Assembly: GCA_030613245.1 (NCBI GenBank)
Contig: JAUWMI010000020.1
Coordinates: 1-64,000, forward strand
Reading direction: 5' to 3'
DNA from: Candidatus Sumerlaeota bacterium
Lineage (GTDB): Bacteria > Sumerlaeota > Sumerlaeia > MWCT01 > JAUWMI01
DNA length: 64,000 bases
Both the position numbers and the translations under genes were made by a program. The first letter of the stretch is position 1. Every line of letters starts with the position of its first letter. The notes below the pieces were generated by a model that saw nothing but the letters and a program-made list of their open reading frames with translations, ran no database searches and had not been told where the DNA came from. Of the stretch, positions 11,858 to 28,415 are shown piece after piece.

Positions 11858-13759
11858 CTATTCTTCCAGCACGTCCTCCAGACGAATGCCATACTGCTTC
11901 ATTTTACGCCAGAGAGTTGAGGGGTTAATGTCGAGAATGCGCGCAGTGTGGCGTTTGTTACCTCGCGTACTTTTCAGAACTTGAATGATATGATCTTTCT
12001 CCATGGCTTCGAGTGTTTTATCAGACGCGGAGGAGGGGATACCAACAGAGACTGGCTCCTGGGGTTTTTCTTCCCGGTATTGAGCCACCCGTTTGATCTT
12101 CGCCAATTCCTCGAGGTAGAAACTGCTCTGTGTTCCCATTACTACGGCACGTTCAACAAGGTTTTCTAATTCGCGAATATTGCCCGGCCATCCATACTCC
12201 ATGAGCGTTTTGATTTCTTCAGGCGACATGGACTGCACAGGCTTGAGACTCCGTTTATTGTACTTGTGGAGAAAGTGATCCACCAGCAGAGGAATGTCTT
12301 CCTTGCGCTGGCGGAGTGGCGGAAGCACAATGGGCAACACGTCCAGACGATAGTAGAGATCTTCCCGGAAGCGGCCCTCGCGGACCAGGGATTTGAGGTC
12401 GCGATTTGTGGCAGCAACAATACGGATGTCAACCTTTATGGTCTCAGTGCCGCCGACGCGCGAGAACTCTTTCTCCTGGAGCACGCGGAGAAGTTTAACC
12501 TGCATCTGGAGGCTGAGGTCGCCGATCTCATCAAGAAAGATGGTGCCATGATTTGCCAGTTCAAAGCGACCGATTTTCTGGGCATAAGCGCCCGTAAAGG
12601 CGCCGCGTTCATGGCCAAACAGGTCGCTCTCGAGCAAATTCTCAGGAATCGCACCACAGTTCACCACCACGAAGGGCTTGTCACAGCGCGGGGAATTATA
12701 GTAGATCGCTTTGGCCAGTAGCTCCTTACCCGTTCCGTTTTCGCCAAAAATCAGCACAGTAGAGTCGGAAGCGGCAGCCAGCCGCGCATGCCGCATCACG
12801 CGCAGCATCTCCTGGCTTTTCCCAACAATCATAATGCCTTTCTCGAGCGATAGACCCTCGACTGCTGGGCTCTCGATTCCTCTGGACAGGCCGAAAATCG
12901 GCGATGCGCCTTCCGAAGTGTTGATTAGCGTGAGCTGCTCATCTTTCTGTCGTGGCAGAATCCCCTTTTTTTCATATATCAGATTGAGATTATGAATTGC
13001 AGCTGCATTGCCTGGATCGCGGTTCACAACCCAGTTGAACTGCTTGATTGCCTCATCAATCTGGCCATTCTCAAAATAGGCAATGCCGAGGTTTAGATGC
13101 GCATCAATCATCTCTTCACCCATAGGCGAAAGCTTCATCACCTTGTGATACTGCTCTATGGCGTCAGTGTAATGCTTGAGTTGGAGATAGAGATCCGCAA
13201 GGTTGTGGCATGCCGAAACCTGGTAGGCATTGAGCTGGATGGATTGCTGGAAGTGTTCAATGGCTTTATCGTACTCTTTGCGCTCTTTATTAATCAAGCC
13301 GACGTACAGGTGGCATTCAGCAAGAAAGACGTTTTTGTCTTCGAAGAGGATGCCAAGATAGAAACGGCCGGCCTTAAAGTCAAATGGCGATTCAATTATT
13401 TCACTGAAGAGCTGCAGAGCGTGGTCAAAGCGCCGCTCGTTAAGCAAAATAATGCCGCGATTGTAATGCATGTCAACATAGTCAGCACCGAGGGCTTCGG
13501 CTCGGTCGTACAGCTCCAGGGCCTTCGCCAGATCGCCGCTGTGGAGATATGCGTGACCGAGGTCTTTGGCAATTTCATGATTTGTTGGATCCGTTGCATG
13601 TGCGGCCTGGAGTTTTTTCAGCGCATCGTCATAGCGACCGGCACAAAAGCTACGTATTCCTTCAATGTAGCTCTGATGAATTTCGACAATGCGCGATCCA
13701 CAGAAGGAGCAGTAGTTGGCCTCGAGGGGAACGGGCTTGTTACACTTATGGCATTTCAT
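11858..13759 (-). CDS. Zinc ribbon-TPR sigma-54 transcriptional activator
   Basis: This is a 633-residue bacterial enhancer-binding protein. Residues 3-20 form a zinc ribbon (C3, C6, C17, C20). Residues 28-270 are tandem TPR repeats in place of the usual receiver, GAF or PAS sensor. The AAA+ domain has Walker A GENGTGKE (339-346), the sigma-54-contacting GAFTGA loop (386-391) and Walker B TIFLDEIGDL (406-415). A Fis-type helix-turn-helix ends the protein (NKRHTARILDINPSTLWRKM). It should remodel sigma-54 holoenzyme, and rpoN is at 61218. Its start overlaps the stop of the upstream small TPR gene by 4 bases. The input signal is probably a protein partner bound by the TPRs, which is inference. 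Confidence 0.93.
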   Translation of the reverse strand: MKCHKCNKPVPLEANYCSFCGSRIVEIHQSYIEGIRSFCAGRYDDALKKLQAAHATDPTNHEIAKDLGHAYLHSGDLAKALELYDRAEALGADYVDMHYNRGIILLNERRFDHALQLFSEIIESPFDFKAGRFYLGILFEDKNVFLAECHLYVGLINKERKEYDKAIEHFQQSIQLNAYQVSACHNLADLYLQLKHYTDAIEQYHKVMKLSPMGEEMIDAHLNLGIAYFENGQIDEAIKQFNWVVNRDPGNAAAIHNLNLIYEKKGILPRQKDEQLTLINTSEGASPIFGLSRGIESPAVEGLSLEKGIMIVGKSQEMLRVMRHARLAAASDSTVLIFGENGTGKELLAKAIYYNSPRCDKPFVVVNCGAIPENLLESDLFGHERGAFTGAYAQKIGRFELANHGTIFLDEIGDLSLQMQVKLLRVLQEKEFSRVGGTETIKVDIRIVAATNRDLKSLVREGRFREDLYYRLDVLPIVLPPLRQRKEDIPLLVDHFLHKYNKRSLKPVQSMSPEEIKTLMEYGWPGNIRELENLVERAVVMGTQSSFYLEELAKIKRVAQYREEKPQEPVSVGIPSSASDKTLEAMEKDHIIQVLKSTRGNKRHTARILDINPSTLWRKMKQYGIRLEDVLEE

Positions 13760-15280: not shown

Positions 15281-16045
15281 TTAGATGGTATAGAGATCGC
15301 CCTGGCGCGCCACTGAAATTTTGGATTGATCAATCGAAAAGTCATCGCTGATATGCACCAGTTTCATCTTGCGGGTGATGGATCTCGGCAGGGCAACCAG
15401 ATCTTCGTACGGCGTGTGACCTCCGTAGTTCGTCTCGTGCAGAAGCAAATCCGCATCGCTCAAGAATTCAATATGCTCCCGGTCAAATGATGTATCAGCG
15501 CTGTATCCTATGGACTTCCCTTTGTACGCAATCTTAAACCCGAAGCAAGGCAGGTAATGCTTCGTTCGACGAATGGTAATTTGCACATTGTGCAGGGCTG
15601 TTGCTTTACCCTCCTCCAGAACACGTATGTCAAAATAGTCTTCCAGCTTAAGCGGATGCCTTACTTGAAAGGTGTCGTCAACGAACTGCCCCATAGCTCC
15701 TTTTAGCTTATGCTCCCAAAGATTATCCGCAACTTCACGAATCGTGTAAATCACGGGTTTGATCTTCTGAATATACTTCTTGAAATATCCGAAGCCCTCC
15801 AGCCCGTTGCAATGGTCACCATGGAGATGGGTAATGATCACGTGGTTAATGTCATGGAGATCCAGGCGATAGCCCGAAGTCTGAGATGCTTCATACATCA
15901 TTTTCCGCAGCGGCTCGGGACAATCCACCATAATTTTCTCTCCTCCTGCAATGACGACAAAGCTCGTTGCGTAATACAGTCGAGAGAAATAGTCCCCAAT
16001 ACCTGTAATAAGCAGCTGCAAATTCTGCTCAGTTTGGTGCTGCAC
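15281..16045 (-). CDS. MBL-fold metallo-hydrolase
   Basis: This 254-residue metallo-beta-lactamase-fold enzyme has the zinc motif THLHGDHCNG, a later metal His within RRTKHYLP, the Asp of YSADTSF and the distal LLHETN block. Its layout is like RNase Z/phosphodiesterase-type MBL proteins rather than beta-lactamases. The start is a GTG (MQHQTEQNLQLLITGIGDYFS). It lies 216 bp downstream of the HD-GYP gene on the same strand and may be a distal part of that signalling operon; a cyclic-nucleotide or RNA substrate is possible but unproven. Confidence 0.86.
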   Translation of the reverse strand: MQHQTEQNLQLLITGIGDYFSRLYYATSFVVIAGGEKIMVDCPEPLRKMMYEASQTSGYRLDLHDINHVIITHLHGDHCNGLEGFGYFKKYIQKIKPVIYTIREVADNLWEHKLKGAMGQFVDDTFQVRHPLKLEDYFDIRVLEEGKATALHNVQITIRRTKHYLPCFGFKIAYKGKSIGYSADTSFDREHIEFLSDADLLLHETNYGGHTPYEDLVALPRSITRKMKLVHISDDFSIDQSKISVARQGDLYTI

Positions 16046-16261
16046 GAGTGCTGACCGTCTTTGGCTCTATGAGAGAATGCTCAACGTAGATTCGTATGCC
16101 GGCGTGAAGCCGCACGGCTGTCTTTCCCACCAAAAGGATAGAAAAGCACTCCGTGACTTCGTCACGCTACGACGAAGCCAATCGTTGCCAGCGAAAACAC
16201 GAGAGTCAAGAGAAAATAGTGCAGACTAAAAAGAAGAATCGGAGGCACGCTGTCCATGTGC

Positions 16262-17521
16262 TTAGGTACTCAGCTCATAGGCCAACGCGTCGAGCAATTG
16301 TGTGATGATTTTCGCGTCGAAAGGCACTTCAAGATTAGGAAGAATCTGGGGGTCAGGAAGTTCTCCGGTGATTTCCTTCTTCAGGATTTTAAAGAAGACG
16401 TTTGTTACCCGCTTGTCAAATTGCAGATTCAAATACGCACAAATCTCATCAATCGTTTTCTCCAGCGACATTCGCCGGCGGTAGGGCCGGTCAGTAGTCA
16501 TAGCGTCAAAGGCATCAACAAAGCTAATAATTTTCACGGCCAGACTAAGGTCTGCGTCGTTAAGCCCATCGGGATACCCGTGACCATCACCACGCTCATG
16601 GTGGTGCCGAATAATATCAGCAATATTGCGCCAGGGAAACTTGATATTCCGAATAATCTCAGATCCGATGAGCGGGTGAAGATGAATCTCGCTTTTTTCA
16701 TCCTTGCTGAGAGTTTGCTCCTTGTTCAGAATCACCTTATCAATAACGATTTTCCCAATGTCATGCAGCAGGCCCGCAATGTAGATACCTTCTAAGTCGT
16801 CCTTTGAAAAGTGCATTTCCCGTGCGATTGCTACTGCATACTTTGCCACTCTCAGTGAGTGATTCTGGGTAAAGGCATCCTTAGTATCAATTGCCACAGC
16901 AAAGGCCTTCACAGTATCGTAATAAATCTCGCGCATATTTTCATAGAGCTGCTTGATTTCCCGCATCTTCTCCTGCAATGACAAGAACATCTGATGGTTA
17001 TGGATGGCCACAGCGATACTGTTGCTCATCACCGGCAGAAGGTCAAAATCCTCCTGATTATAGCTTCGCCGCGAGAGCTTCGGTCCCAATACAATCGCAC
17101 CAATGAGTTCCTTGCGGGTAACCAGAGGGATGAAATACTGCGCCTGCATGTGCGCAAGCCGATCGCGTACTCCTTGAACAAAACCTTTTAATCCAGGTGG
17201 CGGCGAACCCAGAGCGACATAACGATTGCGCCCGATGAGATGACGCATTTGGGCTCGAGTGACAGGGAGATGATTATCCTTGCTGGCGTCGAATCCCTTG
17301 ATGGCAATTGGAACGAAGGCCAGCTCTTCGCGGTCAAAGCGAAAGATCGCCCCTCTTGGCACCGATAGGGTACCTAAAACCATATAGAGTGTGGCCTTGA
17401 CTGTACGATGGAAAGGACGGTGGGACGTGATTTCCTCGCTTAAATCGGTCAGGGTAGCGATATGAAAGAGGTGCTTTCTCAGGTCCGTCGATGTGCGCCG
17501 TGCCATATGCCGCGCCAGCAT
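16262..17521 (-). CDS. GAF-HD-GYP domain phosphodiesterase
   Basis: This 419-residue cytoplasmic protein has an N-terminal GAF-like sensor domain (about residues 20-180) and a short coiled linker. A complete HD-GYP domain follows, with the metal pair HD at 253-254 (LLHDIGK) and the signature HHHERGDGHGYPDGL from residue 306. HD-GYP enzymes hydrolyse c-di-GMP (or cGAMP) to linear products. It is the last gene of a compact operon; only 5 bp separate it from the STAS gene. All catalytic residues look intact, so activity is likely. The GAF ligand is unknown. Confidence 0.93.
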   Translation of the reverse strand: MLARHMARRTSTDLRKHLFHIATLTDLSEEITSHRPFHRTVKATLYMVLGTLSVPRGAIFRFDREELAFVPIAIKGFDASKDNHLPVTRAQMRHLIGRNRYVALGSPPPGLKGFVQGVRDRLAHMQAQYFIPLVTRKELIGAIVLGPKLSRRSYNQEDFDLLPVMSNSIAVAIHNHQMFLSLQEKMREIKQLYENMREIYYDTVKAFAVAIDTKDAFTQNHSLRVAKYAVAIAREMHFSKDDLEGIYIAGLLHDIGKIVIDKVILNKEQTLSKDEKSEIHLHPLIGSEIIRNIKFPWRNIADIIRHHHERGDGHGYPDGLNDADLSLAVKIISFVDAFDAMTTDRPYRRRMSLEKTIDEICAYLNLQFDKRVTNVFFKILKKEITGELPDPQILPNLEVPFDAKIITQLLDALAYELST

Positions 17522-17526
17522 CCTTT

Positions 17527-17880
17527 CTAGGACTTCTTCAAGAGGTGCGCCACTGCTTGCTCTTCTGTATCGTAGATCTTAGCGAACTTAGATAGCTCGA
17601 GCATACGAAAGATCTCTTTACTCACCCTATTAGCATTTGTAAAGTACAGAGTCCCTTTAACCTGTAACACCTTTTCAATAACGCCGATGAGAATAGAAAT
17701 GCCCACGCTATTGATCAGCTCAGTGCGTTCGAAATTTATGATGAAGTTCTTAATACCCTTCTTGAGGTAATACGAGCAGCGCTCGTCAATTTTCTCGCCG
17801 CCAAGATTATTAATATAGCCATTCACATACAGCACGACGTACTTATCGTGAACTCTGTCCGTGACGGAAAACTTCGCCAT
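17527..17880 (-). CDS. STAS-domain anti-sigma factor antagonist
   Basis: This is a 117-residue single STAS domain of the SpoIIAA/RsbV type. The phosphorylation loop reads ELINSVGISILI, with the expected Ser after Asn where many relatives have Asp-Ser. Such proteins release a target from an anti-sigma kinase when unphosphorylated. The ATG begins one base after the stop of the ATPase-kinase fusion upstream, indicating translational coupling and a direct partnership. The HD-GYP gene follows after 5 bp. No sigma-B-like factor is seen in the window, so the final target is unknown. Confidence 0.92.
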   Translation of the reverse strand: MAKFSVTDRVHDKYVVLYVNGYINNLGGEKIDERCSYYLKKGIKNFIINFERTELINSVGISILIGVIEKVLQVKGTLYFTNANRVSKEIFRMLELSKFAKIYDTEEQAVAHLLKKS

Positions 17881-17881
17881 A

Positions 17882-20233
17882 TCAGAGTGTTTCGCCTTCC
17901 GTGGCTTCGCTTGACGTTGCCTGCTGCTCTGGCGGGTGCTTTAACTTGACCATGCGCAATCGCGTTCCGTGTTCGAGCATGTCGAATTCAACGTCATCCA
18001 TAAGGCTCTTGATCAGTTTGATTCCCCAGCCGCGCTTGTTCGGGTCAATAACTTTTTGCGCGATAGCTGGCTCGCCGACGGGCCCCAACTCTAGCGGCGG
18101 GCCTTCGTTCTCCACCCAGACTTCAACACTATCCGGCTTGGTGATAAAACGCAGCCGAATCTTCTTCTCCTTATTTGGGCTGTATTCAATAGCGTTGATA
18201 CACGCCTCGATAATGGCCATTTTCATCTGGCCAATCGCTTGCTCATCAAAGTCCGCGTTCTTGGCAATTTGCCCAATCGCATTTGCCGCTACCAACTCTG
18301 CATCAGCAACTATGGGTAAGGTCAGATTAAACTCCGTGACTTCCCGCAATTCTGTGACGGGAGCTTCAGTTTCAGGTGCTGCCTCTGCCGCATACTGACG
18401 AAAGGGGACTTTCTCGGCCGTGGACAGACATTCTCCGATCAGCTCGAGCTGCACCAGATTAGACGCATACATATTGTAATTCTGGATCAGCTCCAGGCTC
18501 TCCTCAGAGAATGTATCTTTTCCAACGATCCATTTGACCAGGCCGACTCGGCCAAAATGTTTCTGCAACCTCAGACATTTGGCCTGGAAATCTTCGACCT
18601 CTACCGATGTCACGGGCGAAGCCGACTCCAGCAGCTCAACCAACCATACCACCTCATTCCCACTTGAGTAGAGGCCGCTCTTGAAAGCGTAGCTCGTGAA
18701 TACAAACGGGTTATGATACGTCTCGGTTGAGGGCGTGACATCCAGAGGTACGATCTCTTTGCTTGTGCCAACAACCTGCGGTAGCGTCATGGTTCTCGGG
18801 TGCTTTCTAATCTCGTCCAGTGTGATATCGGAACCACTTGTACCGTACTGTTCGCTAAAATCTTGATAAGATAACAGAATTTGAGGGATCTGCTGACAGT
18901 CGAACGAATTGAGGATTTGTTCGAGTTTCTTCTCAATTCCGCTTCGCTCACGTCTGCGCTGAAAACGCGCCATATCCTTGAGCTTCCGCTTGATCACATC
19001 ACTAGCGACACGGTCGCGCTGCATGCCCTTCACTTCAGTTTCGTAGAGCACCAGGAAGCAATCCCGCATTATTGCATCCTCAGCCACAGCGACCTGACCA
19101 AAATCGAAGTCAACGATGCCGAGCTGTTCAAGATCGTCCAGAATCGCATGCACCTCCTCCGTAGATCGGCTGAGACGATGTGCCAGATAGTCCAGCGAGA
19201 ACTTCAACTGAGGAGCTACCGTCACTGTGTGAAAGAGTCCAAGTGCGTGCTTGCGCCGCAGCGGATCGCGAATTTGGTTCTTGAGCAGCGCTGTCCAGTA
19301 GAAATGCGTATGCCCGGCGATAACTTCCTCAGCATAGATGGTCTGGCAACTGCGTATTGACATCAATGCCACCTGTTGCTTTTGCGCCTGGTGCACAATG
19401 TTGCGAATATAGAGCGGGTTTCCACCGATCTGCTCGATAAAATCAACCAGGAATTCCTTCTTATATGGCACTTGAAAGCGCTCGCACAGCTGTTCGAACA
19501 TTTGCAGTGCGTCGTGGTGTTCGAATTCCTGCAGTTCCAGCCGTTCCAGATCGGCCAAGCTCGTACTGCCGCCAACGATCCCTTCAATCAGCTTCCTCGA
19601 CGACCCAGAAAAGAGATGCGGACAACGCCGCGATTGTACTACCTGCTGATACAGACCGAGTACGTGAAAGGGCCCGATGTCGGTGCGCAGATCCTTCACT
19701 CGCTGAAACTCGTCAATGATGACATAGAGTCGGCAGTCGTTATGATGAGCGACATAGTATGGCGCCAGGATTGCACTCTTCAGGGCATTCAGGTAGTCGC
19801 GCTCGGCCAGACTCTCTTCACACTGCGTGATCAAAGTGGCCAGCCAGTTCTCGCCAAAATCTCTCGCCAGATCCACCAAGCGCCGCAGAGAAAGCGTATG
19901 GTGAAATGCGCCATAATCCTCTTTGTGTTTAAAGGCCAGGTATTGCCGAAGAAACTCGGCGAGATAATTGCGAACAAAATCGGGAACAAAAAGGCATTCG
20001 GCGCTGACATTGTAATAAATCGGGACAATATCGTCCTGCTCCCAGAACAGCCGGTGATAGCTGCGCTTAAGTACTTCACTTTTGCCAATGCCTCGGCTGC
20101 CGAAGAGGATAGCACTGCGGGTGCGTGCATGCACTGTATTCAATCCCATGCGAACGATATACTCTACTTCCCGATCGCGATCGAAAAACTCGCTTTCGGG
20201 CAGCATGGGGAAAAACTGATTCGTTGTTTCCAT
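17882..20233 (-). CDS. STAND-type ATPase fused to RsbW-like anti-sigma kinase
   Basis: This 783-residue multidomain protein starts with an archaeal-type/STAND P-loop ATPase: Walker A GSRGIGKS at 45-52 and Walker B LYVIIDEF at 169-176. A winged-helix-like and helical region follows. Residues about 525-600 resemble the PD-(D/E)xK-like domain found in related ATPases, but without an obvious catalytic Asp/Glu/Lys set. Residues about 640-770 are a GHKL kinase of the RsbW/SpoIIAB type, with N-box EACINAIEYS and lid RGWGIKLIKSL. It should phosphorylate the adjacent STAS protein. The domain limits and the nuclease-like call are my inference from sequence pattern. Confidence 0.87.
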   Translation of the reverse strand: METTNQFFPMLPESEFFDRDREVEYIVRMGLNTVHARTRSAILFGSRGIGKSEVLKRSYHRLFWEQDDIVPIYYNVSAECLFVPDFVRNYLAEFLRQYLAFKHKEDYGAFHHTLSLRRLVDLARDFGENWLATLITQCEESLAERDYLNALKSAILAPYYVAHHNDCRLYVIIDEFQRVKDLRTDIGPFHVLGLYQQVVQSRRCPHLFSGSSRKLIEGIVGGSTSLADLERLELQEFEHHDALQMFEQLCERFQVPYKKEFLVDFIEQIGGNPLYIRNIVHQAQKQQVALMSIRSCQTIYAEEVIAGHTHFYWTALLKNQIRDPLRRKHALGLFHTVTVAPQLKFSLDYLAHRLSRSTEEVHAILDDLEQLGIVDFDFGQVAVAEDAIMRDCFLVLYETEVKGMQRDRVASDVIKRKLKDMARFQRRRERSGIEKKLEQILNSFDCQQIPQILLSYQDFSEQYGTSGSDITLDEIRKHPRTMTLPQVVGTSKEIVPLDVTPSTETYHNPFVFTSYAFKSGLYSSGNEVVWLVELLESASPVTSVEVEDFQAKCLRLQKHFGRVGLVKWIVGKDTFSEESLELIQNYNMYASNLVQLELIGECLSTAEKVPFRQYAAEAAPETEAPVTELREVTEFNLTLPIVADAELVAANAIGQIAKNADFDEQAIGQMKMAIIEACINAIEYSPNKEKKIRLRFITKPDSVEVWVENEGPPLELGPVGEPAIAQKVIDPNKRGWGIKLIKSLMDDVEFDMLEHGTRLRMVKLKHPPEQQATSSEATEGETL

Positions 20234-20291
20234 GGTATTTCAGGCCTGCCTTACTGGCGGTGTCGTGTCTCTTAGTTGCGCGCAGCGCAGC

Positions 20292-22367
20292 TCATGCGCC
20301 GCTGGGAAAGTCAATGATATTTCTATCTTTAAATACCTCGTCAAACAACACCAGCTTGTTCTTGCCTTCGCGCTTGGCTTCGTACAGCGCAATATCTGCC
20401 TTGCCCACCAGATCTTTCTCATCCTTGGCATCAACAGGAAATGATGCCAGGCCAATACTTACGGTCAGGCGATCACGCAGATTGTCCTCGCTGTCAGAAG
20501 TCCCGAGGTGGTCAATGCGTGCGATAATACGTTCGGCAATCGAGCGAGCCGTATTCTTCTCAGTTTCCGGCAGAATAATGAGAAACTCTTCACCGCCAAA
20601 CCGCGTCACAATATCAACCTTCCGCACTGTAACCATGATCGTTTGTGAAATTAGCTGAAGTGCCTGGTCACCTGCCTGATGGCCAAAGCCATCGTTGTAC
20701 TTCTTAAAATCATCAATATCCAGTAGCAGGAGGGAGAGGTGACGGCCATAGCGCCGCGACCGCGACATTTCTTCGGCCAGCCGCTCTTCTAGAAAACGCC
20801 GATTGTACAATCCTGTCAGGCTGTCAATGGATGATAACTTGAGCAGGGTTTCCGAGCGTTCATAGTAGCGCATCCGCTCGATGGCCAGCGAGACGTAAGA
20901 GAGAATCGAAAGGACAGTTTGCAAGTCTTCGTCCGAGAAGGGCCGGTCTGTCAATCTATCTGCCACATTCAACACCCCCGCCACGTGGCCGTTCACGCGC
21001 ACCGGCACGCAGAGAAAGGACTTGGTCTTATAGCGAGGATTACTCGGACGCGCAAAACGCGGGTCGCTTTCAATATTTCGGACAACCAGCGGCTCCTTCT
21101 CGCGAAATACACGGCCAGCAATGTGCTCGCCCGGCCGAATCCGAACGTGCGTGAGCGCATCCTTGGGAAAGCCCTTCGTAACCTTAACCAAGAGAGAATC
21201 CATCTGTTTGTCGTAGATAAACAAGGAACAGAGCTGGGCTTCCAACAATTTGGCAATCTCCTCTACCAAAAAGCGGTACACCTCCTCCTCTTCACCCGAC
21301 GACCTCACCCGAGCGTGCAAATCAGAAATAAATGTCAGAATCTTCTGACGGGAATCCAGCTGCGAGTGAAGCTCGGCACTTTCGTGCGTGAGTGCAATCT
21401 GGCGGAAGAACGACGAAACAATGGAATAGGCGGTGTTCTCCAGCCGTGTGTTGAGGAGTATGATAATGCCATGTTGCTTCTCGCTAAACCGAAACGGGAA
21501 AATGTACAGACACTCAATGGCTGGCGGAAATCCGAATTCTTTGATCAGGCCGGGAGAATCCACAAATGAGGGATCTTTTGTGACAAGCACCTTTGCGGCC
21601 CAGATATCAAATTCCCTGCGATGAGAGGTTTCAAAGACGTCTTTATGCCGCCCCAGGCTGAATTCGGCGCTAAACTGCTTGCGTTGCTCATCGAAGGCCA
21701 GAATGCCAATGGTATTGATCTCAAACAAGTTCAGCAGCATATTGGCCACGTAGGTATAAATCTCTGACGGCGTGCTGTAGAGATTAAGATTCAGGCAGGT
21801 ATTAAACAGCGTAAGCAGACGCACAACATTCTGGTAGTAGAGATCCTGGGAATGCAAATTCTCAAGAATCACTTTTGCTGAGGATTCAACCAGGCGGAAG
21901 CCACGCTCGAATTCTTCCCACTCCTTGAATCGCACAAGCTTGCTCTGCTCGACAAACTGGTCAAAATCCTGATACTGGTGGGCATGTTGCAGGAGAGATG
22001 AAAAATCTTTATGCGAGGTAAAGACGCGACCGCCAAACAGGAAGAGCTCCATGACGTCATTCACACAATAGGGAATTACGAAGTTTGTCAATTGGGCAGG
22101 GCACTTGAATGTGTATGGAGTTCGGATCTGGCGAATCTCATCCAGCGACTCTCCACAAAAGGTCTGACAGCGCAGGGACGGATCTGGGAAGTCCCGCAGA
22201 AACCGGCAAAATAGGTTCTCATTGCTAGCAGCGCAGATCGGCGTCCCATCTGGCAGAAAGGTCTGAAGCGTAAACCCGGTAATCCGAGCCAGATCGTCCT
22301 GCATCCGTTGCCAGATGCCCACATTCATAGGGCCCGAAAATGTTTTTGAAAATCGCGACGGTCCCAT
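20292..22367 (-). CDS. PocR-GAF-GAF-GGDEF diguanylate cyclase
   Basis: This 691-residue cytoplasmic sensor-cyclase heads the operon. Residues about 15-170 match a PocR ligand-binding domain, with conserved cysteines C54, C67, C71, C89 and C101. Two GAF-like domains follow (about 190-340 and 355-500). The GGDEF domain has the active motif as GGEEF (591-595) and the product-inhibition I-site RKVD (582-585) five residues before it. It should make c-di-GMP from GTP. The start could be residue 1 or the Met at residue 14; neither has a strong ribosome site. The Cys-rich PocR domain may sense a small organic ligand or redox state, which is inference. Confidence 0.92.
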   Translation of the reverse strand: MGPSRFSKTFSGPMNVGIWQRMQDDLARITGFTLQTFLPDGTPICAASNENLFCRFLRDFPDPSLRCQTFCGESLDEIRQIRTPYTFKCPAQLTNFVIPYCVNDVMELFLFGGRVFTSHKDFSSLLQHAHQYQDFDQFVEQSKLVRFKEWEEFERGFRLVESSAKVILENLHSQDLYYQNVVRLLTLFNTCLNLNLYSTPSEIYTYVANMLLNLFEINTIGILAFDEQRKQFSAEFSLGRHKDVFETSHRREFDIWAAKVLVTKDPSFVDSPGLIKEFGFPPAIECLYIFPFRFSEKQHGIIILLNTRLENTAYSIVSSFFRQIALTHESAELHSQLDSRQKILTFISDLHARVRSSGEEEEVYRFLVEEIAKLLEAQLCSLFIYDKQMDSLLVKVTKGFPKDALTHVRIRPGEHIAGRVFREKEPLVVRNIESDPRFARPSNPRYKTKSFLCVPVRVNGHVAGVLNVADRLTDRPFSDEDLQTVLSILSYVSLAIERMRYYERSETLLKLSSIDSLTGLYNRRFLEERLAEEMSRSRRYGRHLSLLLLDIDDFKKYNDGFGHQAGDQALQLISQTIMVTVRKVDIVTRFGGEEFLIILPETEKNTARSIAERIIARIDHLGTSDSEDNLRDRLTVSIGLASFPVDAKDEKDLVGKADIALYEAKREGKNKLVLFDEVFKDRNIIDFPSGA

Positions 22368-25115: not shown

Positions 25116-25504
25116 TAGCTCTGGTTCTGGCGCCCAGGCTGAATCCGTCCTGGTAAAATGCAGGATTCGATCTCTGGCATGTGTCTCTTATCCATTGTTA
25201 AGAGCCGCACTTGCGAGAAAGGTCCGCGTTGTTAGCCAACACAATTTTCTCGTGTGTCACCTTTTGTCTTCCTGCACGTCTAAGGGAATAGGAACTTGTT
25301 GGTTACGCACCAAATGCGGGGATATCTTGCACTATGGTATCCCGGCACACAGATGGGCACACGCCATGATATTCTTATTGCATAGTCAAACCTTACAGGA
25401 TATGCTATAGTCTTTCTTATGTGTCAACTTACAAGGGACTTTGCAATGACAGTCAGTAGCCTTGGGCTATTTTTTTCTGGTCATTGCTGATACGAGGAGA
25501 GCCA
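25116..25504. other. Intergenic region and leader of the secretin operon
   Basis: These 389 bases hold a weak promoter candidate (TTGCAT at 25378, 17-base spacer, TATGCT at 25401) and an intrinsic terminator at 25455-25476. There is no gene. A transcript begun at that promoter would meet the terminator before the first start codon. Confidence 0.4.
25455..25476 (+). terminator. Intrinsic terminator just before the secretin operon
   Basis: TAGCC (25457-25461) pairs with GGCTA (25465-25469) around a TTG loop, extended by A/G-T pairs, and is followed by a run of seven T. It lies only about 28 bases before the ATG at 25505, so it may act as a leader attenuator as well as a simple stop. Confidence 0.6.
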
Positions 25505-26443
25505 ATGCGGTCACGTGTGCGTTTGAGGAGCCCGTTGTTAGGCGCTCTCGTCCTAGTGCTTGGCGCTTGCGCGTATCTAACGAATCCAACCCTACAAAGC
25601 GATCTCCGCTCAGCAGATCAGAGCTTTCACAACAAACAATACGGCATCGCTGTAACGAAGTACCTTTCGCTGCTAGAGGGTCTCGGGCCTGGCACGACCC
25701 ATGCCAGCGTTCTGTTTAGACTGGCAGAATGTTACTACAATCTCAATTCGTACTATGACGCCCGCCAGAGTTTTGAATCCTACCTTAAGCTCTACCCTGA
25801 TAGAGAAGATACAGATCGAAGTAGGCGTTATCTGGAGAAAATCCGCCGGGAATATGATAAGAGAGAGGCACAGTACCAAGCCGGGATTCAGAAGGAAATG
25901 GAGAGGATCAGCGAGCTAAAGGCGTTGGTGGAGAAGAATTTTCAGGATGCCGGCTACCACTTTGAGCTGGGCAATGCCTACTGGAATCTGGCGCAGTATC
26001 AGGAAGCAGTAAAAGAATACTTTCGGGCTATTGAATTGGACCGGTCGTTTAAGGAGAACGCGTTGATTAAGTCGCGTCTGATTTTTGACCTGGAAGGCAA
26101 CGTAATTCCCTTTACGCCACGGGAGCGCATTGAGCTGGAGCGCGAGAAAGAACCGATCGTGATTTACAACACCTTCGCCTCGCGCGCAAGAGATTGGTAT
26201 AGGAGCCAACAGAATAAGTACATCGTGACGGGACAGGCGAAAAACCAGAGTACCAGGCCGGTTTTAAACCTCCGCGTTGAAGTTACGCTTTTTAATACAT
26301 ATGGCAATGTGTTGGATGTCAAAACAACCTACCTGGGCAACGTTTTTCCGCAAGAAGTTCGATCTTTCAGGGCAGACTTTGCCAATATCAGCGATATTGC
26401 AAATATTGATCGTTTTGAGTGCAAACCACTGTTCGGCAGATAA
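25505..26443 (+). CDS. TPR lipoprotein
   Basis: This is a lipoprotein of about 312 residues. The ATG at 25505 is chosen because GAGGAG lies about 5 bases upstream; an in-frame TTG at 25484 is unlikely. The signal peptide ends in lipobox VLGAC. TPR-like repeats follow (SADQSFHNKQYGIAVTKYLS; HFELGNAYWNLAQYQEAVK). The C-terminal 100 residues form a beta domain of the FxLYD type (NLRVEVTLFNTYGNVL). Its stop overlaps the region upstream of the next secretin gene by only 17 bp. In secretion systems such lipoproteins often act as pilotins or assembly factors, which is the likely role here. Confidence 0.85.
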   Translation: MRSRVRLRSPLLGALVLVLGACAYLTNPTLQSDLRSADQSFHNKQYGIAVTKYLSLLEGLGPGTTHASVLFRLAECYYNLNSYYDARQSFESYLKLYPDREDTDRSRRYLEKIRREYDKREAQYQAGIQKEMERISELKALVEKNFQDAGYHFELGNAYWNLAQYQEAVKEYFRAIELDRSFKENALIKSRLIFDLEGNVIPFTPRERIELEREKEPIVIYNTFASRARDWYRSQQNKYIVTGQAKNQSTRPVLNLRVEVTLFNTYGNVLDVKTTYLGNVFPQEVRSFRADFANISDIANIDRFECKPLFGR

Positions 26444-26460
26444 CAGAACCGGCTAAAGAC

Positions 26461-27357
26461 ATGAGAACAAAGCACCGCTATAGGGTGGCACTGCTAAGTG
26501 TGCTAGTGGGATGTTTTTCCTACTCCTCGTTTTGCGCCGAGGAACACCTGCAGGTGCGCATTAAGGCGAAAATCATTGAATGGAAGTTAGACAATGCGCT
26601 GGACTACGGGATCAGCGCTCTCTACACGCGCAATCTTGGTGCGGGTGCGATCGTCGAGAGCGCGGATCTCACATTCCCCACACAAACTGCTATTGATCAC
26701 GGCGTCAAACTTTTCTTCGACAGCCTGAACGCCGGTAGTGGCATGATTGAGTTAGTGCTAGAGGCGCTGGAAGAGGAAGGAAAAATCAGGGTGCTGTCGG
26801 AGCCAAATATCACCGTGGTCGAAGGCCACGCCAAGCCCGCCAAGGTATCTACAGGAATGAAAGTGCCATACGAGACCACTCAGGCAGCCGGAGCAACGGT
26901 AGTGCAGGTTACTGAATTCCGCGACACCGGGATTACACTGACTATTGAAAAAGTGGAAGTCCTAAACGATGAATACGTTCAGATGCAGCTGAATGTAACC
27001 GTCTCCGTCCTAACCGGATATGTGGCGATTGCTATTGACCAGGACGGAAACCCAATCTCTGTTCCCGAGCTTTCCAGCCGGTCGTTGACCAATACGATTC
27101 TGGTAAAAGACGGAACTCCATTTATTGGAGGAATTCTTAAAACCACCTCCAGGCTGATAAAGGAACAAGGGGTTCCCTTTTTATCAAGCATACCGATTCT
27201 GGGGGGCCTGTTTAAAAGCCACCATGCCACCAAGTCTGATACCGAGCTCATCTTCCTGATTACGCCGGAGATTCTGAGGACGCGAATGGCGACAGGGCTG
27301 TTTGCAGCGGATGAGGCGACAACTGCCGTTCTGCATCAGGCTTCGCCAGAATCTTAG
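26461..27357 (+). CDS. Short secretin-domain protein 1 (GspD/PilQ C-domain)
   Basis: This 298-residue secreted protein consists almost wholly of a secretin domain. After a signal peptide (VALLSVLVGCFSYSSFCAEE) and about 70 residues comes LEEEGKIRVLSEPNITVVEG, then the late-domain block FLSSIPILGGLFK and TELIFLITPEIL. These are the GspD/PilQ/PulD signatures. The N0-N3 ring domains of normal 600-residue secretins are missing. The ATG at 26461 is used because a signal peptide follows it directly. The second secretin gene starts 11 bp downstream. It may form an outer-membrane ring alone or jointly. Confidence 0.88.
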   Translation: MRTKHRYRVALLSVLVGCFSYSSFCAEEHLQVRIKAKIIEWKLDNALDYGISALYTRNLGAGAIVESADLTFPTQTAIDHGVKLFFDSLNAGSGMIELVLEALEEEGKIRVLSEPNITVVEGHAKPAKVSTGMKVPYETTQAAGATVVQVTEFRDTGITLTIEKVEVLNDEYVQMQLNVTVSVLTGYVAIAIDQDGNPISVPELSSRSLTNTILVKDGTPFIGGILKTTSRLIKEQGVPFLSSIPILGGLFKSHHATKSDTELIFLITPEILRTRMATGLFAADEATTAVLHQASPES

Positions 27358-27368
27358 ACCTAGAGCCC

Positions 27369-28415
27369 ATGGAGCTGCTAATGCATTTGCTGGGGAGCGC
27401 AAAACCAATGCCAATCCGATTGATCATTCTAAGGGTTGCCTTGACTGTTCTGGTTCCAGTAGTGTGCACGACTGCGCTTGCCGAAGCCCCGAGCGCGGAA
27501 TCCAAACCAGCCGGGAACCCTTCCACAGCTGGACTAGCCAGCTCTGCGCCTTCGAACCCAGAGCTCCCACGGCAGATCGCCATCGAGGGCCTTGTGGTAG
27601 AAGTGGGGGAGAATATGACAAGGGAGCTGGGCCTCGAGTATAGCTACAACCGGAGCGAAGCCCGGAGCCCGGGCAGTGTGTTGGAAGGCGCAACGTTTCG
27701 CTTCCCGATACCACCCCGCAGTGTGACGGTGCCGAATTTTGTTGATACAGATAGCACTTTCAAGATCGAGCAGGAAAATCGTGAGCTGGGACTCGGAGTT
27801 AATATTGTTGGCATGGACATCAGCCGCGGAGTCCTTGCCGCGCGATTGAGAGTGCTGGTGAGCACTGGGGACGCAGAGATTAAATCGCAGCCTATGGCTG
27901 TTGCGCTGGAAAATACTAAAGCGATCATAGAAACAGTGGATGAAGTACCGTTTCAAGATGTGATATTCATGCCGAACAAGCCCGTGCCGCGGCTTGATGT
28001 TTCGTTTGAAAAGGTGGGCGTCAAACTGGAGGTGACACCAACAATCGAAAATGAGAAGCTCCGTCTGGTGCGCTTAAATATCGAGAAAATCGAGGTAAGC
28101 AGTGTTACGAGATTTATCACCATTCGCGGTGTCTCACGGCCGCTTTTTGCCAAGTCGGAAGCCTCAACCGAAGTAGTGATACCAAGCGGAGAAACCCTGG
28201 TCATCGGTGGACTCAAATCGCAGCACGACCGCCGCGCCATCAGCGGCATTCCTTTTCTCCAGAAGATTCCGCTAATCGGCCTGCTTTTTCGCAATACTAA
28301 GATCATCAAGGAACAAACCGACGTTCTCTTTTTTATCACGCCGTACATCCTCGAGCCGGGCGAAAATCCAATTCTGCCAGTGGATTTTGCCCATTATCCA
28401 TTAAACCAGTCCTGA
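27369..28415 (+). CDS. Short secretin-domain protein 2
   Basis: This second secretin-like protein, 348 residues, is paralogous to its neighbour but diverged. It has a signal segment (LIILRVALTVLVPVVCTTALA), a 40-residue Ser/Pro/Ala linker and then the secretin domain ending ISGIPFLQKIPLIGLLFRN and TDVLFFITPYIL. N-domains are again absent. Three in-frame ATGs (27369, 27381, 27408) precede the signal peptide; GGAG 6 bases before 27381 makes that one attractive. Two mini-secretins side by side with a TPR lipoprotein are unusual. Confidence 0.86.
   Translation: MELLMHLLGSAKPMPIRLIILRVALTVLVPVVCTTALAEAPSAESKPAGNPSTAGLASSAPSNPELPRQIAIEGLVVEVGENMTRELGLEYSYNRSEARSPGSVLEGATFRFPIPPRSVTVPNFVDTDSTFKIEQENRELGLGVNIVGMDISRGVLAARLRVLVSTGDAEIKSQPMAVALENTKAIIETVDEVPFQDVIFMPNKPVPRLDVSFEKVGVKLEVTPTIENEKLRLVRLNIEKIEVSSVTRFITIRGVSRPLFAKSEASTEVVIPSGETLVIGGLKSQHDRRAISGIPFLQKIPLIGLLFRNTKIIKEQTDVLFFITPYILEPGENPILPVDFAHYPLNQS

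Follow-up and report, generated by a model that had tools for sequence, protein, structure and literature searches.

Textbooks present partner switches as regulators of sigma factors, and only a few cases are known in which they act on the synthesis of cyclic di-GMP (c-di-GMP). A further arrangement is encoded in a 64,000-nucleotide stretch of DNA, here called the window (contig JAUWMI010000020.1 of assembly GCA_030613245.1, positions 1 to 64,000), from the 4.29-Mb genome, in 97 contigs, of a bacterium of Candidatus Sumerlaeota, formerly BRC1. Four minus-strand genes at 16262-22367 specify a diguanylate cyclase, a partner-switch kinase fused to a STAND ATPase, a STAS protein and a predicted GAF-HD-GYP phosphodiesterase. 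Comparison across genomes shows with very high confidence that this operon is a conserved unit, and makes it likely that the STAS protein controls the phosphodiesterase.

The partner switches already described for c-di-GMP enzymes, HsbA-HsbD, SiaC-SiaD and BgrV-BgrR, all act on cyclases (PMC8457831, PMC5085249). In the HptB-HsbR-HsbA-HsbD system of Pseudomonas aeruginosa, as proposed for the operon, Ser phosphorylation of a STAS protein sets the binding of a c-di-GMP enzyme, a precedent for such contacts; its targets, however, are a diguanylate cyclase and FlgM, kinase and phosphatase functions reside in the response regulator HsbR rather than in a STAND-RsbW protein, and no HD-GYP enzyme takes part (PMC5085249). 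SiaABCD of the same species likewise combines, in one small operon, a kinase and a c-di-GMP enzyme with a small protein that can be phosphorylated, but SiaC is a DUF1987 rather than a STAS protein, the target SiaD is a cyclase, and there is a dedicated phosphatase, SiaA (PMC8457831). The BgrSTUWV-BgrR system of Sinorhizobium meliloti, as cited in PMC8457831, is a STAS-based partner switch over a c-di-GMP enzyme; its target is the cyclase BgrR, and the account given there reports neither an HD-GYP protein nor a STAND-fused kinase. The Bacillus pairs RsbW/RsbV and SpoIIAB/SpoIIAA resemble the operon in kinase fold (PDB 6m37, 1til), STAS fold (1auz), N-box and the position of Ser58, but they address sigma factors and their kinase is a free small protein. 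The sequence-only reading of the window knew of no system with this exact gene order, and the literature searched agrees, although partner switches on diguanylate cyclases were known. That literature yielded no description of a partner switch or anti-sigma antagonist that acts on an HD-GYP enzyme, subscription journals lying largely outside the reach of the search.

For the last gene of the operon the closest described protein is PmGH, a GAF-HD-GYP c-di-GMP phosphodiesterase of Persephonella marina (PDB 4mcw), with which it shares domain layout, HD ligands and GYP motif. PmGH forms a dimer through its GAF domain and the following helix, and its E185 ligates a three-iron centre; the E185A variant retains reduced activity (PMC4159591). 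This position is Phe in the window protein and, by alignment, mostly Tyr in its homologues. We know of no STAS partner of PmGH.

The four genes of the operon are intact and separated by gaps of 58, 1 and 5 bp, exactly as first read from the sequence. Pfam bears out most of the domain architectures given in that reading, with the qualification that the first GAF domain of the cyclase scores under the Pfam thresholds, and that a middle domain of the kinase (about aa 430-610) had been overlooked. The key motifs it listed are all intact. Along its whole length, none of the four proteins reaches the cut-off of any NCBIfam family. All features of the operon given below lie on the minus strand.

The first gene (20292-22367, 691 aa) encodes a PocR-GAF-GAF-GGDEF protein, in which the PocR sensory domain (aa 15-170; 21858-22325; PF10114, E=3e-20) carries cysteines C54, C67, C71 and C89. 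The GGDEF catalytic domain (aa 513-671; 20355-20831; PF00990, E=1.8e-48) has, on motif reading, both the GG(D/E)EF active site (GGEEF) and the RxxD I-site (RKVD) of a diguanylate cyclase, RKVDIVTRFGGEEF.

The second gene (17882-20233, 783 aa) matches ATPase_2 (PF01637, over cut-off) and HATPase_c_2 (PF13581, E=1.9e-17). Its STAND/NB-ARC-like ATPase domain (aa 16-277; 19403-20188) has Walker A GSRGIGKS and Walker B YVIIDEF, and the N terminus of the full-length structure model resembles PDB 2qen, CED-4, Apaf-1 and Sr35 in Foldseek searches. The C terminus of the model resembles RsbW/SpoIIAB, with 6m37 matched at a TM-score of 0.88 by target length and an rmsd of 1.5, and this HATPase domain (aa 640-766; 17936-18316) has the N-box Glu and Asn of a GHKL kinase (EACIN, E676/N680) and a G-rich lid (KRGWG). 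Taken together, these fold matches identify the protein, as modeled, as a fusion of an RsbW-type kinase with a STAND module. Between the two lies the middle domain (aa 430-610; 18404-18946; AlphaFold mean pLDDT 78), which has no obvious catalytic Lys and can be called PD-(D/E)XK-like at low confidence only, because its Foldseek matches to restriction-endonuclease-like folds are weak (best MspJI, E=5e-3). It is present in the kinases of Sumerlaeota and of genome G186 and absent from those of Nitrospirota.

The third gene (17527-17880, 117 aa) encodes a small protein whose sole Pfam match is STAS (PF01740, E=1.2e-12); with no DUF1987 match, it is not SiaC-like. Its nearest solved relative is SpoIIAA, and Ser58 (codon 17707-17709), the residue predicted to accept the phosphate, aligns with Ser58 of SpoIIAA, the serine phosphorylated in that protein. 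Ser or Thr occupies this position throughout the alignment, and positions 57-58 read N-S/T in every aligned copy. The D57 of SpoIIAA is thus replaced by N in the window protein and all aligned operon homologues, a constancy by which N57 may mark this type of STAS protein.

The fourth gene (16262-17521, 419 aa) matches HD_5/HD with a weak GAF in Pfam. It retains the HD diad, the His ligands and the GYP motif (LLHDIGK, HHHERGDGHGYP), and the HD and GYP motifs are intact in 25 of 25 aligned copies. Although PmGH is its best solved match, the second best is a 3'3'-cGAMP phosphodiesterase, so that c-di-GMP is only a predicted substrate. The GAF domain (16952-17491) belongs to a subtype, recognized by its own profile, that is associated with STAS proteins and is a candidate site for STAS docking.

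The check for conserved co-occurrence that the sequence-only reading had proposed found strong conservation. Homologous kinases were detected with an alignment-based profile, a single-sequence scan of genome contigs having returned none. Within Sumerlaeota the kinase is present in 9 of 40 genomes searched. In two of these (G005 and G020) a PocR-like/GAF/degenerate-GGDEF protein is followed by kinase, STAS and GAF-HD-GYP; a third (G022) has a degenerate GGDEF protein, kinase and STAS before its contig ends; and in a fourth (G006) kinase and STAS accompany a protein with PocR alone. When 386 genomes were searched with a profile of the GAF domain from the HD-GYP protein and relatives of that domain, 14 matches reached 100 bits or more; generic GAF domains came only after a gap, at 82 bits or lower. 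Outside Sumerlaeota the high scorers of this profile led to the three-gene core of kinase, STAS and GAF-HD-GYP in G130, G186, G162 and G324, with the full four-gene order in G162. The phylum of G162 is Nitrospirota, as another of its genomes (G491) is identical at the locus to a Nitrospirota contig. There, the GAF subtype occurs in 17 of 246 genomes, and 11 loci, each in its own genome, have all four genes in identical order, with the three-gene core at further loci. G130 belongs to a separate, small phylum in which four of eight genomes are positive, so that the core occurs in three phyla or more.

Evidence on how these genes work together comes from natural knock-outs. In Nitrospirota the kinase profile matches in 44 of 396 genomes. 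Among the kinases collected from all phyla, those with an intact N-box (E...N) have STAS directly downstream in 35 of 36 cases, the remaining contig stopping 179 bp downstream; among those with a decayed HATPase domain, STAS is present in 0 of 20 (Fisher p about 1e-15 if loci are taken as independent). Of the STAS loci whose contig continues for 1.6 kb or more, 30 of 32 are followed by GAF-HD-GYP. Loss of STAS in Nitrospirota is accompanied by loss of GAF-HD-GYP, and in the Sumerlaeota genomes G013 and G019, by an HD-GYP protein without its GYP motif. The cyclase follows another course. In fifteen Nitrospirota loci with a decayed kinase the PocR-GAF-GGDEF gene still adjoins that of the STAND protein, and its GGDEF motif, I-site and all four PocR cysteines are intact. 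Other Sumerlaeota loci that retain kinase and STAS have, wherever it can be read, a degenerate GGDEF domain or none; among fully read Sumerlaeota loci, only the window genome has an intact GGDEF. Architectures, intact motifs, gene order, conservation and joint loss are established by the sequences themselves.

This pattern of joint loss and retention suggests that kinase and STAS are most likely an enzyme-substrate pair on which the HD-GYP protein depends, with the cyclase going with the STAND part. That the kinase phosphorylates the operon STAS protein, with Ser58 as the predicted acceptor, is highly probable; that STAS gates the HD-GYP enzyme is likely, and that the GAF domain of this enzyme is the docking site is about evenly balanced. 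The sequence-only reading had the switch gating either cyclase or phosphodiesterase; comparative evidence favors the phosphodiesterase and disfavors the cyclase, with direct gating remaining the predicted step. Gating of the HD-GYP enzyme draws support from the joint loss, the adjacency of STAS and GAF-HD-GYP, the recurrence of the GAF subtype near STAS, the lack of a SigB/F/G factor above cut-off, and natural fusions: in G296 and G159, STAS, GAF and HD-GYP occur in one polypeptide next to a HATPase gene.

Several observations weigh against this interpretation or limit its support. On the STAND-domain tree the N-box/STAS pattern needs about three changes, so that the joint losses probably amount to only about three independent events. 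Two loci (L034; L308, identical to L061) have kinase and STAS with no adjoining HD-GYP gene. The operon contains no phosphatase of the PP2C (SpoIIE/RsbU) type, although two SpoIIE-family proteins are encoded elsewhere in the genome and could serve the switch. Trees of the kinase and of the HD-GYP protein both sort loci largely by phylum, as expected from joint inheritance, with the Sumerlaeota rows not forming a single group in the latter; trees and distance matrices agree (Mantel r 0.89-0.97), but these correlations were set aside as evidence of contact since shared descent explains most of them. Finally, in Sericytochromatia (L063, L064, L066-L068) and in G157 (L205), the next or next-but-one gene after STAS encodes a GAF-GAF-GGDEF protein, and a diguanylate cyclase thus appears able to occupy the target position. 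In Sericytochromatia an HD-GYP gene is often near this pair.

This last arrangement, together with the precedents on cyclases cited above, gives most weight to an alternative in which the diguanylate cyclase is what STAS controls, after the pattern of HsbA-HsbD or BgrV-BgrR, with the HD-GYP enzyme as an independent counterpart in the operon. It is nevertheless unlikely. About a dozen Nitrospirota loci in which kinase, STAS and HD-GYP are intact lack the cyclase, as does the phylum of G130; the catalytic domain of the cyclase has decayed in Sumerlaeota relatives that keep kinase and STAS; and the cyclase is fully intact in the 15 genomes lacking STAS and kinase activity. Moreover, the GAF domains of the cyclase lie outside the STAS-associated subtype, reaching only 20-50 bits against its profile. 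The co-loss pattern, an indirect comparison, points in the same direction, to the HD-GYP protein rather than the cyclase as the target of STAS.

A classical partner switch, in which STAS would release an alternative sigma factor or some other distant target, with the c-di-GMP enzymes supplying input or simply located in the same operon, is an improbable explanation. The closest relatives of kinase domain and STAS are indeed RsbW/SpoIIAB and SpoIIAA, the genome holds two further sigma-70 factors (by eye, its sigma-70 factors look like RpoD, an RpoS/RpoH-like and a FliA-like protein), and the two loci without an adjoining HD-GYP gene would fit. The sequence-only reading, however, saw no sigma-B factor nearby, no SigB/F/G factor exceeds its curated cut-off in the genome (best TIGR02980, 132 bits against 234), none of the operons inspected was noticed to contain a sigma factor, and both the 30 of 32 adjacencies and the STAS-GAF-HD-GYP fusions point to the phosphodiesterase. 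That the genes simply have parallel jobs and are co-expressed with no direct contact between STAS and enzyme is very improbable, for although signaling genes frequently cluster, joint loss accompanied by catalytic decay, the natural fusions and a STAS-associated GAF subtype recurring over several phyla speak against it.

The GAF subtype itself extends beyond HD-GYP proteins. Newly found high-scoring GAF domains are near or fused to STAS or an RsbW-type HATPase in 10 to 11 of 11 loci, compared with 3 of 17 for generic GAF domains (Fisher p=2.7e-4), a comparison for which GAF domains associated with STAS or HATPase had served to train the profile and wider flanks were examined for the high scorers. 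Identity with Pfam DUF3369 was rejected, as only 4 of 17 members match it (best E=0.0047). In several phyla the gene just after STAS keeps the GAF subtype while its output domain varies. In Sericytochromatia and G157 this output is GGDEF. Five Neomarinimicrobiota loci (L065, L073, L079, L097, L108) have an RsbW-HATPase, STAS and then a GAF-GAF-PAS-class III adenylate/guanylate cyclase (Pfam run on L079 and L097), which suggests a partner switch on cAMP or cGMP. An Actinomycetota contig has the subtype with a HisKA histidine kinase; a Deltaproteobacteria contig has the same layout, with a weaker match to the subtype, in the second GAF domain; and G077 has the subtype with a SpoIIE (PP2C) phosphatase. 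Single polypeptides of the form RsbW-HATPase-GAF-GAF-GGDEF occur in Riflebacteria (L119, 6162-8168) and in G157 (L204, 6657-8696), their GGDEF motifs reading GGEKF and EGDKF, respectively. Elsewhere in the same collection, two divergent STAS/HATPase pairs stand back to back in one region (L201, 9679-11482; L202, 10532-12425). It can tentatively be proposed that STAS proteins under phosphorylation control dock generally on this subtype, with the kinase-STAS pair as a plug-in module whose output, depending on phylum, would be a c-di-GMP phosphodiesterase, a diguanylate cyclase, a class III nucleotide cyclase, a histidine kinase or a PP2C phosphatase.

For the window operon, the preferred explanation, gating of the HD-GYP enzyme by STAS, can be drawn as one signaling unit with a sensory half and a switch half. 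In the sensory half, the PocR-GAF-GAF-GGDEF cyclase would produce c-di-GMP on engagement of its sensor and cooperate with the STAND ATPase part. In the switch half, STAS would be phosphorylated on Ser58 by the RsbW-type kinase domain that shares a polypeptide with STAND, and the phosphorylation state of STAS would select its partner, either the kinase or the GAF domain of the downstream enzyme, and so raise or lower c-di-GMP breakdown. With both halves in one unit, a single input could thus set synthesis and degradation together. This model as a whole, a conserved unit with a STAS switch on the GAF-HD-GYP enzyme and a cyclase that works with STAND, is probable; its predicted elements are the phosphorylation of STAS, the docking of STAS to the GAF domain, the coupling of STAND with the cyclase, and the direction of the effect.

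Just 3' of the HD-GYP gene, a terminator-like hairpin (16152-16166) possibly marks the operon end, in a region where such hairpins barely exceed chance frequency. Beyond it, directly after the operon, a metallo-beta-lactamase-fold protein (15281-16045) adjoins the cyclic-nucleotide genes; it matches Pfam Anti-Pycsar Apyc1 at 58.1 bits (cut-off 50), and no PADLOC model matched it. For the operon, defence-system models matched generic Cas3-HD only, and an anti-phage role was therefore dropped. Elsewhere in the window, two neighboring short proteins (312 and 348 aa; 26419-28415), each with a secretin domain, lie downstream of a TPR-like protein (25484-26443), and a sigma-54 activator (11858-13759) has N-terminal TPR repeats replacing the receiver domain and a C-terminal Fis-type helix-turn-helix.

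If the model is correct, a switch on c-di-GMP breakdown that is shared across phyla and whose operon also holds a matched cyclase would allow a single input to set both arms of turnover, and genomes that lack the switch while keeping the cyclase would offer ready-made controls. The module would further account for many orphan kinase-STAS pairs of genomes that lack SigB. Should the broader proposal hold as well, the plug-in kinase-STAS/GAF module would be a signaling bus comparable to the receiver domains of two-component systems.

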